This document shows positions 12,932 through 42,652 of a DNA stretch of 64,000 nt, one piece after another. Position numbers and translations under genes: made by a program. The notes under the pieces were generated by a model, which did no database searches, was not told where the DNA came from, and was given only the letters and a program-made list of their open reading frames with translations. Position 1 is the stretch's first letter. Each line of letters opens with the position of its first letter. This DNA is from Nostoc foliaceum FACHB-393. GTDB lineage: Bacteria > Cyanobacteriota > Cyanobacteriia > Cyanobacteriales > Nostocaceae. The stretch lies in the NCBI RefSeq assembly GCF_014698505.1, contig NZ_JACJTD010000006.1, positions 62,001-126,000 on the forward strand. The letters are read 5' to 3'.

Positions 12932-13040
12932 AGGCGGGTGCGGGGATTGAACCCGCTAATCCCCACAATGGTGGAGACGTAACCGATAACCCTAAATTCT
13001 CCGTCCCCGAAAGGCAAGTTGCGAACAAGGATAACCCGCC
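12932..13040 (-). ncRNA. Y RNA-like, tRNA-mimic RNA A (downstream of Ro60)
   Basis: On the minus strand the ends form a perfect seven-pair acceptor stem (GGCGGGU with ACCCGCC), and a tRNA-type T arm with seven-base loop (GCGGG UUCAAUC CCCGC) abuts its 3' strand. There is no D arm and no anticodon arm. In their place lies a helix with AUCCUUGUUC and ACUUGCCU on one side and GACGGAGAAUUUAGGGUUAUC on the other, closed by UUCG. UUG pairs with CGG beside an unpaired base, as in the Ro-binding element of Y RNAs. A second small hairpin (UCCAC CAUU GUGGG) precedes the T arm. It lies 50 bases after the Ro60 stop. Strong as a structured RNA; Y RNA identity is inference from motif and context. Confidence 0.75.
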
Positions 13041-13049
13041 ATGAAGTAT

Positions 13050-13082
13050 GAAGGATAAAGTATATTTCATCCTTTACCCTTC
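13050..13082. repeat. Hairpin between Ro60 gene and RNA A
   Basis: GAAGGATAAAG at 13050-13060 pairs with CTTTACCCTTC at 13072-13082 with one G-U/A-C position. It sits between the Ro60 stop codon and the downstream RNA, with no T-run, so it may be a processing signal rather than a terminator. Confidence 0.45.
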
Positions 13083-13090
13083 AGCAATAT

Positions 13091-14692
13091 CTACAATTCA
13101 CCCGTAGCCAGCATCTGGATGATCCGAGGCGTACCTGGGTCGAATCCTGCCAAATCCCAAGACAGCGAATCTTCAGGATCTACCAAAGTAATTTGGTAAG
13201 GTGTCAAGGTGACATACACAGCCTTGACGTTAGGATTTACCTTTTTGCGGTACTGTTTCAACGCTTGACTTGGATGCTTATTTCCCGCCCAGCTTTCCGA
13301 GTCAGTCCAAAAGCACACAACATCTGCCTTAAACTTATTCTTAATCATCCAGTCGTAAGCTACAGACGCATCAGTTCCACCGAAGTTTTGGTTGCTAGCT
13401 TTGCGAACCGCAGAACTAAAACTATCTTTGGCAGTGATACCTAATTCCCGGAATTCTGTAGCAAAGCCGCGAATCATGTAGTTTTTCTCTGCTTTTGCTG
13501 TTACCAGTGCCATTGTGGTGGCAATTTCACAACAACTTAGTCCCATATCTGCAACCAAGCTACCCATAGAACCAGAAACATCCACGGCGTGTATGAATAC
13601 TTTACCTGTGGGTTGCACAACATCAAAAGACAGTTCAACTGCTTTTTCTAAAATGTCCACAATCCGAGGAACTGGGTTCCAAGTTTTCTTACTGCGTCCT
13701 AATGTTCCACCAGATTCATAAGTTTTGAGTGCTTTCAAAACATCAATCGGATGGATGCGACCTTTACGCAGATGTTCTCTGCGATTAAGAACTGCTTCCA
13801 CTTGCAGCAAATTAGCATTTTCATCGGCTCGCAACACACCCAGTTCAGTTAAAGAACCTAAGTTACGTAACATTGCACCTATTGGCATTTCCTGAAATAG
13901 CAGCTGCCAAGCAAGCTTATCCATTTTGCCCACAGGTGCAGCCATTTCGTGGGTTAAGCGTCCTTGGGAAATAGCTTCATGGGTTTGGGTGGGATTCCGC
14001 TTGAGCCACTCATACCACCAAATCTGCGCCAACGCCTCTGAGGGGATATCTGCTGGCAATTCTTCCCAGCCTTTAACTACCCACTCAAATAGTTGACGGT
14101 GATTTTCTGTAGGCGGTTTGACATGGAACAACCGCAACGCATCTCGGTGCGAGAAGCCTTGACGCTGTTGATATTTCAACAGTTGATAAGCTAAACCCTT
14201 AACATCTTCCCTTGAGAGCCAAGTTTTACCAGCTTCCCGCACTACTTTGCCAAATCCCCGCAGAGATTTGGTGTAGTTCAACCATTCGTAGAAGTGGCTA
14301 CCAGTACGGACAACTTGCGGAAATATTTCACCAAACGCCTGTTTTGCTTCTGGTGTTTCACCCATCGACAGCAGCACCAAAGCCAAGATAGGCGCACTGT
14401 TATTGATGGCGCGTCCATCGCTAGCATACAAAATTTCTTCTGCTACACGGCTGGGATTTTCGGCAACAGCTTGTCTGACAACTGTCACAAAATCCTCAGT
14501 TAATTCTTGTTTACCAGCGTAGTAAGTGCTTTTTGCTGTGCCAACCAACAGACAACGGCGCAGCATTTTCCAAATACCAGCATCAAACATCCAGCCGCCA
14601 GAACGTCCCTGAATCATCTCTGCTTCCCGTCCGGGGATGGGTTGATTTTGTGGTGTAGTCGTCTTCTTTTTAGTGAAAAAATTGTAATTCAT
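13091..14692 (-). CDS. rsr: TROVE domain protein, Ro60/Rsr orthologue
   Basis: 533 residues, the usual bacterial Ro size. The N-terminal two thirds form the TROVE ring of helical repeats (for example SHFYEWLNYTKSLRGFGKVV and FSHRDALRLFHVKPP), which binds Y RNAs and misfolded RNA ends. The C-terminal third is a von Willebrand A domain with an intact MIDAS: DVSGSMGS at Asp371-Ser373-Ser375, and GGTDAS. In Deinococcus and vertebrates Ro works with Y RNAs and exoribonucleases in RNA quality control and stress survival. ATG at 14690-14692. Two Y-like RNAs lie just upstream on the same strand (38 bases to the nearer) and one 50 bases downstream, so co-transcription is likely. Confidence 0.95.
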   Translation of the reverse strand: MNYNFFTKKKTTTPQNQPIPGREAEMIQGRSGGWMFDAGIWKMLRRCLLVGTAKSTYYAGKQELTEDFVTVVRQAVAENPSRVAEEILYASDGRAINNSAPILALVLLSMGETPEAKQAFGEIFPQVVRTGSHFYEWLNYTKSLRGFGKVVREAGKTWLSREDVKGLAYQLLKYQQRQGFSHRDALRLFHVKPPTENHRQLFEWVVKGWEELPADIPSEALAQIWWYEWLKRNPTQTHEAISQGRLTHEMAAPVGKMDKLAWQLLFQEMPIGAMLRNLGSLTELGVLRADENANLLQVEAVLNRREHLRKGRIHPIDVLKALKTYESGGTLGRSKKTWNPVPRIVDILEKAVELSFDVVQPTGKVFIHAVDVSGSMGSLVADMGLSCCEIATTMALVTAKAEKNYMIRGFATEFRELGITAKDSFSSAVRKASNQNFGGTDASVAYDWMIKNKFKADVVCFWTDSESWAGNKHPSQALKQYRKKVNPNVKAVYVTLTPYQITLVDPEDSLSWDLAGFDPGTPRIIQMLATGEL

Positions 14693-14729
14693 GGTTTCAT
14701 CTCCCGGCCCTTGCGGGCAAAAATGAAAG

Positions 14730-14852
14730 GTGGCGGAGCGGGATTTGAACCCGCGACCTCTCGAACCCTAATCGATAACCCTAATTCGTCGGCCTTTTCA
14801 GGCAAGGGGTGAACAAGGATGTTTAGCGCTCTACCTCTGAGCTACCCGCCAC
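14730..14852 (-). ncRNA. Y RNA-like, tRNA-mimic RNA B (upstream of Ro60)
   Basis: Minus-strand RNA with a seven-pair acceptor stem (UGGCGGG with UCCGCCA), U8-A9, a normal D arm (GCUC AGAGGUA GAGC) and a T arm (GCGGG UUCAAAU CCCGC). The anticodon arm is missing; instead there is a roughly 60-base insert. Its core, CACCCCUUGCCU, a GAAA tetraloop, then AGGCCGACGAAUUAGGGU, pairs CCU/AGG, leaves a bulged C, then pairs UUG/CGA and ACCC/GGGU. The bulged C next to CGA/UUG is the known Ro-binding signature of Y RNAs. The RNA ends 38 bases before the Ro60 start codon. No anticodon and no encoded CCA, so it is not a normal tRNA. Confidence 0.8.
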
Positions 14853-14860
14853 ATAAAAAG

Positions 14861-14891
14861 TTAGGAGTTAAGAGTTAGGAGTTAGGAGTTA
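14861..14891. repeat. Heptamer tandem repeat (GTTAGGA type)
   Basis: About four copies of a seven-base unit (GTTAGGA/GTTAAGA) between RNA C and RNA B. Heptamer STRR repeats of this sort are characteristic of heterocystous cyanobacteria. Confidence 0.7.
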
Positions 14892-14948
14892 AATATTTAA
14901 AACTTCTCACTCTTGAGTTTCTACTCAGCATTCAGTACTCAATTTGGT

Positions 14949-15073
14949 GTAGTGGAGCGGGAATCGAACCCGCGACCTCCCGCTTGGCAGGCGATAACCC
15001 TCAATTCTTCGGCCTTTTCAGGCAAGAGGTGAATAAGGATGTTTAGGCGCTCTAACCACTGAGCTACCCACCA
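14949..15073 (-). ncRNA. Y RNA-like, tRNA-mimic RNA C (promoter-proximal)
   Basis: Same design as RNA B: acceptor stem UGGUGGG with UCCACUA (seven pairs, two G-U), U8-A9, D arm GCUC/GAGC, T arm GCGGG UUCGAUU CCCGC. The anticodon arm is replaced by an insert with ACCUCUUGCCU, a GAAA loop, and AGGCCGAAGAAUUGAGGGU. CCU/AGG, bulged C and UUG/CGA are identical to RNA B, while the next base pairs change on both sides (UC with GA here, a C-G pair in B), as expected for a conserved helix. A small hairpin (CCUGCCAAGCGGGAGG) lies before the T arm. CACCA follows the acceptor stem. It is the first element after the promoter candidate at 15103-15131. Confidence 0.8.
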
Positions 15074-15102
15074 CATATCAAGTAAAGTTGACTTGTATTA
15101 TT

Positions 15103-15131
15103 AATGTAGTATTTGTATTATTTGTTGTCAA
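15103..15131 (-). promoter_or_regulatory. Promoter candidate for the Y RNA/Ro60 locus
   Basis: On the minus strand TTGACA (15126-15131) is followed after 17 bases by TACATT (15103-15108), a good sigma-70 type pair. A start about seven bases further on would leave a leader of some 23 bases before RNA C at 15073. Position and spacing are seen directly; activity is inferred. Confidence 0.6.
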
Positions 15132-42581: not shown

Positions 42582-42652
42582 GCGGGCGTAGTTTAGTGGT
42601 AAAACTATAGCCTTCCAAGCTATTAATGCGGGTTCGATTCCCGCCGCCCGCT
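42582..42652 (+). tRNA. trnG: tRNA-Gly (anticodon TCC)
   Basis: 71 bases. Acceptor GCGGGCG pairs with CGCCCGC, discriminator T; D arm GTTT...AAAC; anticodon arm ATAGC CTTCCAA GCTAT with TCC at the anticodon position; T arm GCGGG TTCGATT CCCGC. No CCA is encoded. All arms are canonical, in contrast to the three tRNA-like RNAs at 12.9-15.1 kb. Confidence 0.97.

Follow-up and report, generated by a model that had tools for sequence, protein, structure and literature searches.

The window analysed here, a 64,000-nucleotide (nt) stretch of Nostoc foliaceum FACHB-393 (contig NZ_JACJTD010000006.1, positions 62,001 to 126,000, counted below from its first letter), carries on its minus strand a Ro60 gene together with three RNA genes, in the gene order RNA C, RNA B, Ro60, RNA A. 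All three RNAs contain a Ro-binding module; RNA B and RNA C are, judged from their sequences, un-permuted tRNA cloverleaves whose acceptor ends are open, and RNA A is predicted to be a reduced form without the D-arm. Three Ro-hairpin RNAs on a tRNA plan, two of them with an anticodon-like loop whose triplet varies widely among relatives, suggest a family of tRNA look-alikes worked by Ro60. The original prediction had the gene order right, and its view of the RNAs as tRNA-mimicking Y RNAs of this Ro60, placed so as to be expressed along with it, fits the data below; the RNA ends were corrected to those listed here, and it had overlooked both the anticodon-like hairpin and a Y-like hairpin in the Ro60 mRNA leader. 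The features are as follows (R1 and R2 are covariance models described below):

14949 to 15074, minus strand: RNA C, predicted un-permuted tRNA-shaped Y RNA (R1 128.3 bits, R2 72.6 bits)
14991 to 15041, minus strand: Ro module of RNA C, made up of a helix and the core UUGCC-UGAA-AAGGC[C]GA (R2 72.6 bits)
14980 to 14994, minus strand: anticodon-like hairpin of RNA C, UCGC-CUGCCAA-GCGG (stem covaries in relatives)
14730 to 14852, minus strand: RNA B, predicted un-permuted tRNA-shaped Y RNA (R1 128.9 bits, R2 71.0 bits)
14772 to 14821, minus strand: Ro module of RNA B (R2 71.0 bits)
14761 to 14775, minus strand: anticodon-like hairpin of RNA B, UCGA-UUAGGGU-UCGA (stem covaries in relatives)
13091 to 14692, minus strand: Ro60/Rsr protein, 533 amino acids, TROVE and vWA domains, DVSGS motif (Pfam and solved-structure matches)
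12933 to 13040, minus strand: RNA A, downstream of Ro60 (R2 56.8 bits, fold)
12983 to 13033, minus strand: Ro module of RNA A, with A at the bulge and CGG replacing CGA (R2 56.8 bits)

RNAs B and C each run from the acceptor 5′ strand through UA, a D-arm, a spacer, the Ro module, the anticodon-like hairpin, a variable stretch and a T-arm to the acceptor 3′ strand, and the tRNA-like D, T and acceptor arms are present in both. In RNA C the acceptor includes a G-1:C73 pair and its end is followed by an encoded ACCA (14948-14945). The Ro module consists of a helix of AUCCU-UGUUC with GAAU-AGGGU, capped by UUGCC-N4-GGC[C]GA (bulged base in brackets) and followed by UUAUC, behind which sits a hairpin of 4 bp with a 7-nt loop. 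RNAs B and C thus share with tRNA the cloverleaf order, the T-loop, the D-arm and a 7-nt anticodon loop with U33, whereas they differ from it in the Ro module of about 50 nt lodged between D-arm and anticodon hairpin and in an anticodon stem of 4 bp instead of 5 bp. ARAGORN and Rfam called none of RNAs A, B and C a tRNA, the sole call in the window being a tRNA-Gly at 42582. RNA A is composed of an acceptor stem, the Ro module, an extra hairpin and a T-arm, and its R1 match, which extends further at the 5′ end (12932-13083), scored 47.6 bits. Folding of the single sequences compared with shuffles gave z values of -1.73, -1.18 and -2.47 for the three RNAs, which is weak evidence; the case for the RNAs is carried by comparative evidence.

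For that comparison, 68 RNAs from Ro loci, RNA B and RNA C included, were assembled in an alignment (A1) by selecting RNAs of 115-127 nt that lie before Ro60 and have seven acceptor pairs, a T-arm of 5 bp, a D-arm-like start and a stretch of 17-20 nt behind the module; because of these selection criteria, RNA A types and others are absent from it. The A1 structure paired 96.1% of cells, with a covariation of 0.390 as against 0.171 in shuffled and at most 0.105 in slid alignments. Helices outside the criteria also covaried, namely the D-arm, an extra acceptor pair, the Ro helices and the anticodon stem. The extra (eighth) acceptor pair was formed in 56 of the 68 RNAs (43 G-C, 12 U-A, 1 U-G) and unpaired in 12, and the closing pair of the anticodon hairpin was AU in 31, CG in 20, UA in 7, GC in 3 and another combination in 7. 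The core that the original prediction had described as common to the three RNAs proved real: the bulged base (column 71) was C in all 68, and the core pair beside it covaried (G-C 50, A-U 15, G-A 3). R1 is the covariance model of A1, so that RNA B and RNA C both belong to its training set, while R2 models the Ro module and was trained on 59 sequences including all three window RNAs. With R2, the kind of custom model that had been proposed as a check, the three modules stood at the scores listed above and the next best scores were 9.5 bits in the window and 16.6 bits in the whole genome; in this search of the genome the Ro-binding module was found at the Ro60 locus alone. In some RNAs the Ro module is itself rearranged, with the core hairpin first and a strand of the outer helix after the anticodon-like hairpin; such RNAs lie upstream of Ro in L012, L013, L022, L023, L061 and L062, four being counted with a strict anticodon hairpin and the others seen by eye.

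We then asked how RNAs and protein are distributed. The window Ro60 matched the Pfam families vWA_Ro60 (2.4e-38) and TROVE (6.4e-18) above their cut-offs and, over nearly its full length, its nearest solved relatives Rsr (2nvo, 7.6e-75) and Ro60 (1yvp, 3.3e-73); it was the single match in a genome-wide search. Among 291 genomes drawn from the order (Cyanobacteriales), 72 contained Ro60. In the R1 scan, 12 candidates per genome were scored under strict filters, and the best hit sometimes lay off the Ro contig. Since true tRNAs, too, receive R1 scores (the tRNA-Gly of the window reached 56.1 bits), the cut-off of this model was set at E 1e-12, a line placed after seeing the gap between the best Ro-less genome (about 3e-11) and the weakest counted one (4.4e-13). 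At this cut-off 67 of the 72 genomes with Ro60 had the RNA, as against none of the 219 without. R2, used at E of 0.01 or less, found 239 modules in the 70 Ro loci of the order, all 239 on the Ro60 strand, with 209 before and 30 after the gene. At least one module was present in 65 of the 70, so that the motif does stand beside Ro genes in related genomes. The five loci with no module were L035, L066 and L067 (the last two cut by contig ends), L068 (divergent Ro) and L070 (Ro fragments), and in the genome of L035 (G162) the R1 hits lay on a different contig. Where the locus extended at least 1.4 kb before and 1 kb after Ro60, as it did in 57 cases, the median was four modules and the maximum ten. 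Three RNAs with two of them upstream of Ro60, an arrangement first described as unusual, is therefore ordinary for the order. Taken by motif, context and co-occurrence, the identification of the window RNAs as Y RNAs is supported, and binding to Ro60 would be expected of them.

The anticodon-like hairpin has a nearly fixed frame around a free triplet. Positions 34-36 read GCC in RNA C (loop CUGCCAA) and AGG in RNA B (loop UUAGGGU). By pattern, a strict hairpin was found in 69 of 194 module-bearing RNAs, 65 in the common place and 4 in a rearranged module. A wider set of 130 loci (L001-L070 and L098-L157, some genomes being present twice) gave 148 strict hairpins in 96 loci, and among the 122 distinct ones U33 was found in 120, a purine at 37 in 116, and 30 different triplets. 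The A1 entropies were 0.33 bits at U33, 1.95, 2.00 and 1.79 bits at 34, 35 and 36, and 1.06 bits at 37. Thus U33 and purine 37 are nearly fixed and 34-36 are near random across species. Among 368 close pairs drawn from 116 distinct RNAs, which are not independent of one another, 34-36 differed at 29.6% of sites compared with 5.4% of all other sites and 9.0% of other unpaired sites; U33 differed in none of the pairs and the triplet in 206. Single sites elsewhere, T-loop column 123 (49.7%) and D-loop column 18 (38.0%), were as fast as position 34 (46.7%), and position 35 differed in 21.5%. Base 37 was coupled to base 36 (U36-A37 in 39 of 40, G36-G37 in 28 of 31), a dependence also seen in real tRNAs. 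Within a locus, strict hairpins never had the same triplet (0 of 44 pairs, where 4.07 would be expected; P 0.0098); with one copy kept per distinct triplet set the figures were 0 of 31 against 2.04 (P 0.099), and with repeated sets removed an avoidance of repeated triplets within a locus is only suggestive. Outside the order, a 7-nt hairpin of 3 or 4 bp stood at 26 of 66 candidate places, permuted viral forms included, with U33 in 20 and a purine at 37 in 25. The idea that these anticodons name real isotypes was not upheld: the acceptor stems, compared by eye, ignore the triplet, A34 occurs in 24 of 120 hairpins (17 of them AGG) and stop-type triplets in 4 of 120. A34 is rare in bacterial tRNAs.

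The parallel with YrlA, the tRNA-like bacterial Y RNA, was borne out in the arms of RNAs B and C and failed in their build. In YrlA, according to the published description (PMC8394870), the 5′ and 3′ ends together form a large stem, accompanied by arms of the D, T and acceptor kind, and its structure is reported to superpose on tRNA as a circular permutation (PMC11472068). YrlA (Rfam RF02553; Salmonella 6CU1) likewise goes with Ro60 and has a Ro-binding helix and D-, T- and acceptor-like arms, and its element order is identical to that of RNAs B and C once the circle is closed. Unlike YrlA, whose ends form the Ro stem, RNAs B and C have acceptor strands at their ends and an internal Ro hairpin closed by a tetraloop, and they keep the anticodon-like hairpin. 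In vertebrate Y RNAs, too, the Ro-binding helix has one bulged C (PMC4726728), but these RNAs have no tRNA body and carry the Ro helix in the lower stem at the RNA ends. The Rfam models suggested earlier as a check gave no Y RNA match in the window at their cut-offs, and the only sub-threshold match of RF02553 (14796-15016, 25.4 bits against a cut-off of 69) begins in the second half of RNA C and ends in the first half of RNA B, which is what one would see if the permuted form corresponds to the place where two tandem copies meet. In seven viral Ro loci picked as permuted-looking, the YrlA model gave one-gene matches in all seven (34.5-42.0 bits; best per locus 36.4-42.0 bits, all under the cut-off, those of L173 partial).

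Beyond the order, the sample comprised the best 80 of 197 genome-contig loci, 39 viral-contig loci and two more viral loci. Full-length R1 hits came from Leptolyngbya-type cyanobacteria, from some loci labelled Chloroflexi, Minicystis, Gemmatimonadaceae and Parabeggiatoa, and also from the bacterial L085 and the viral L192. A strict pattern scan scored the loci as follows: in the order (70 loci) 46 tRNA-ordered, 2 permuted and 24 unreadable; in other cyanobacteria (13 loci) 7, 1 and 5; in other bacteria (20 loci) 5, 2 and 14; and in viruses (41 loci) 1, 14 and 26, so that 14 of the 15 readable viral loci were permuted. From these counts the tRNA-ordered form is typical of these cyanobacteria, yet not confined to them. 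The two loci of the order scored as permuted, L017 and L018, had to be rejected as such, as they are really junctions of two tandem tRNA-ordered RNAs lying 14-15 nt apart upstream of Ro; the acceptor strands of these RNAs are complementary, and the junction reads like a permuted YrlA. The window Ro60 itself had no relative in a search against the viral contigs.

The leader of the Ro60 mRNA contains a further hairpin that resembles the Y core:

14704 to 14720, minus strand: Y-core-like leader hairpin, UUGCCC-GCAA-GGGC[C]GG (pattern, predicted fold)

The sequence UUGCCCGCAAGGGCCGGGAG at 14720-14701 resembles the Y core and continues into the Shine-Dalgarno sequence GGGAG (14705-14701), of which the last two G of the hairpin are the first, and the Shine-Dalgarno is paired in the predicted fold. 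In a first count a strict core hairpin stood at -24 to -35 in 51 of 61 loci, nine loci having been omitted by hand, of which L049, L056 and L057 do have a start codon. A recount over loci with at least 35 nt before the start gave 52 of 69, or 52 of the 65 intact leaders that remain without L042 (start unclear), L068 (divergent Ro) and L069 and L070 (Ro fragments). In comparison, the pattern was found in 28 of 3660 windows from coding sequence and 46 of 3660 from downstream sequence, in 58 of 3050 leaders after shuffling and in 156 of 3540 upstream stretches holding Y RNAs. The stems varied modestly (GCCC/GGGC 26, GCCU/AGGC 16, GCC/GGC 6, GCUC/GAGC 2, UCCC/GGGA 1), the bulge was U in 32 and C in 19, and in 50 of the 51 the first G behind the bulge opened a Shine-Dalgarno-like run. 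Beyond the order, similar leaders were seen by eye in L076, L091, L098, L113, L114 and L158. The placement of the hairpin against the Shine-Dalgarno suggests a feedback on Ro60.

Given these data, we consider it probable that the locus is a Ro60 ribonucleoprotein gene cluster in which the Y RNAs gate Ro60 toward tRNA-type substrates and the leader provides feedback. A candidate promoter lies in front of RNA C:

15103 to 15131, minus strand: promoter-like TTGACA-17-TACATT, 28 nt before RNA C (consensus match only)

From it, a single transcript would run through RNA C, RNA B, the leader, Ro60 and RNA A, and the RNAs would be released by tRNA processing, i.e., by RNase P, tRNase Z and CCA addition. 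Ro60 would bind each RNA through the UUG/CGA helix with its bulge, and the tRNA body might present the particle to tRNA-recognising enzymes: to PNPase through a tether of the RYPER kind, to RtcB for repair, or to enzymes that cut tRNA. The RNAs would thereby gate Ro60 and aim it at tRNA-type substrates, while spare Ro60 could bind its own leader hairpin and mask the Shine-Dalgarno, in which case Ro60 output would track the Y RNA supply. We infer a function as Ro-bound tRNA mimics in RNA surveillance or repair, and the RNAs possibly act as baits for tRNA-cutting enzymes. The known precedent is RYPER (Rsr, Y RNA, PNPase), described in D. radiodurans (PMC4726728, PMC8394870), and Hughes et al. 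put forward tRNA decay and competitive inhibition of an anticodon nuclease by YrlA as options (PMC7790460). The RtcB gene adjoining Ro and the Y RNAs in L118 and L103 also counts in favour of this reading.

Several observations weigh against this reading. By R1, five of the 72 Ro genomes had no RNA: three contain Ro fragments only (G094, G042, G160), G246 has a divergent Ro (32%), and G201 has other RNA types, which R2 detects (L011). The acceptor and T-arm pairing in A1 was itself a selection criterion. RNA A has neither D-arm nor anticodon hairpin, and 125 of the 194 module-bearing RNAs have no strict anticodon hairpin, A-type, long-variable-arm and loop-insertion types being among them. Promoter-like sites in the region number 4 where 3.6 are expected, i.e., a chance-level number. 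Thirteen of the 65 intact leaders lack the strict hairpin (ten are near variants), none was seen in the leaders of L049, L053 and L057 among these 65, and the leader folds only mildly better than shuffles (z -1.75, -2.29). RtcB is not near the window Ro60, being located on other contigs of the genome; no conserved effector gene was found beside Ro60 among the neighbours over 80 Ro loci, and the recurrent neighbours, a dihydroorotate dehydrogenase (33) and a membrane protein (33), look like plain synteny.

A tentative alternative, which we hold to be possible although not the likelier account, is that the RNAs are an ordinary RYPER-type tether and act as YrlA does, gating Ro60 and recruiting PNPase, with gene number, topology and anticodon loop all neutral. 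Their Ro core and tRNA-like body are of YrlA's kind, and RYPER itself has been described in the papers cited above. A neutral loop does not readily explain a fixed U33 beside free 34-36, the coupling of 36 and 37, or the retention of the hairpin in the four RNAs with a rearranged module. It is doubtful, in our view, that the RNAs are first of all anticodon baits, a changing set of tRNA look-alikes that would bind or absorb anticodon nucleases of phage, toxin or host origin, with Ro60 stabilising the look-alikes and detecting damage and selection favouring new triplets. The near-maximal entropy at 34-36 between a near-fixed U33 and a mostly purine 37, the excess of differences there over other unpaired sites, the 36-37 coupling, the lack of repeated triplets within a locus, the proposal of YrlA as a possible competitive inhibitor and the position of some Ro loci elsewhere in or beside tRNA arrays all speak for baits. 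Yet the within-locus test weakens with one copy per triplet set, the close pairs are non-independent and single sites elsewhere (columns 123 and 18) are equally fast, and a loop kept neutrally for its U-turn would show free triplets as well. The A34 and stop-type triplets and the many RNAs without an anticodon hairpin count against baits too, as does Salmonella YrlA, which is reported to be itself uncleaved and to give no YrlA fragments (PMC7790460). An extended version, in which Ro60 holds a renewable library of tRNA decoys, un-permuted in body and free to change their anticodons, that reports or soaks up anticodon cutters, Ro60 dosage is set by the leader mimic and the permuted YrlA is derived, seems to us distinctly unlikely as a whole; in it, the permuted form would have arisen from a tandem pair, from the second half of one gene and the first half of the next, and the tandem pairs of L017 and L018 already show such a permuted-type junction. 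That the RNAs are working tRNA genes with an inserted spacer that gets removed is highly improbable: the arms and the anticodon loop are tRNA-like and the Rfam tRNA model accepts some non-cyanobacterial relatives with the insert (39.9-50.1 bits), but neither ARAGORN nor Rfam calls the three window RNAs, taking out the module would not, as far as could be seen, bring back an anticodon stem of 5 bp, and the module covaries on its own and accompanies Ro60. Decaying tRNA pseudogenes beside Ro60 by chance are hardly credible, for although loops and copy number change rapidly, the covariation, the split between genomes with and without Ro60 and the fixed strand speak against decay.

The tRNA-ordered RNAs, whose loops combine a near-fixed frame with a free triplet, offer a direct way to find the enzyme that the mimicry of Y RNAs addresses, and RNAs with an anticodon loop bear on why bacterial Y RNAs should resemble tRNA at all. 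With two topologies to compare, the origin of the permuted form becomes testable, and the leader hairpin would offer a simple feedback rule for the ribonucleoprotein of Ro60, which is studied as a human autoantigen. In those parts of the literature that were searched, which do not cover a 2014 survey, tRNA-ordered Y RNAs, anticodon loops of Y RNAs and a Ro60 leader element were unreported, and the papers found on cyanobacterial tRNAs and non-coding RNA discovery made no mention of Ro60. The 2014 survey, by Chen, reportedly took in more than 250 species; part of these findings may already be in print.

Some minor observations were made on the locus and its relatives. The spacer between RNA C and RNA B (window 14853-14944) holds short repeats of the type AACTCCTAACTC. 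In G094, G042 and G160 (L070), which contain only fragments of Ro60, R1 detected no Y RNA, as though the gene and its RNAs were decaying jointly. Over the 80 Ro loci, RtcB was a neighbour in 4 and a large protein in 9. RtcB adjoins Ro and the Y RNAs in L118 and L103, an adjacency like that described for the rsr-yrlBA-rtcBA operon (PMC7790460) and unlike the present genome. The nine loci with the large protein (L100, L103, L105, L109, L110, L113, L114, L118 and L119) are all labelled as cyanobacteria, namely Pantanalinema, Leptolyngbya, Aphanothece, Phormidium, Elainella and Adonisia. The protein has about 950-1000 amino acids in the three copies examined, and the L100 copy, the only one scanned, matches EAD4, NACHT and HEAT-repeat families; it looks like a conflict-system NTPase. 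Finally, Ro60 lies beside arrays of 20, 21, 19 and 24 tRNAs on the opposite strand in L088, L090, L092 and L097 (Eremiobacterota/WPS-2 labels) and amid an array of 37 tRNAs in Minicystis rosea (L091), and the viral contig L170, which has both Ro and an array of tRNAs, carries an RNase P class A RNA at 184-511 (252.7 bits).

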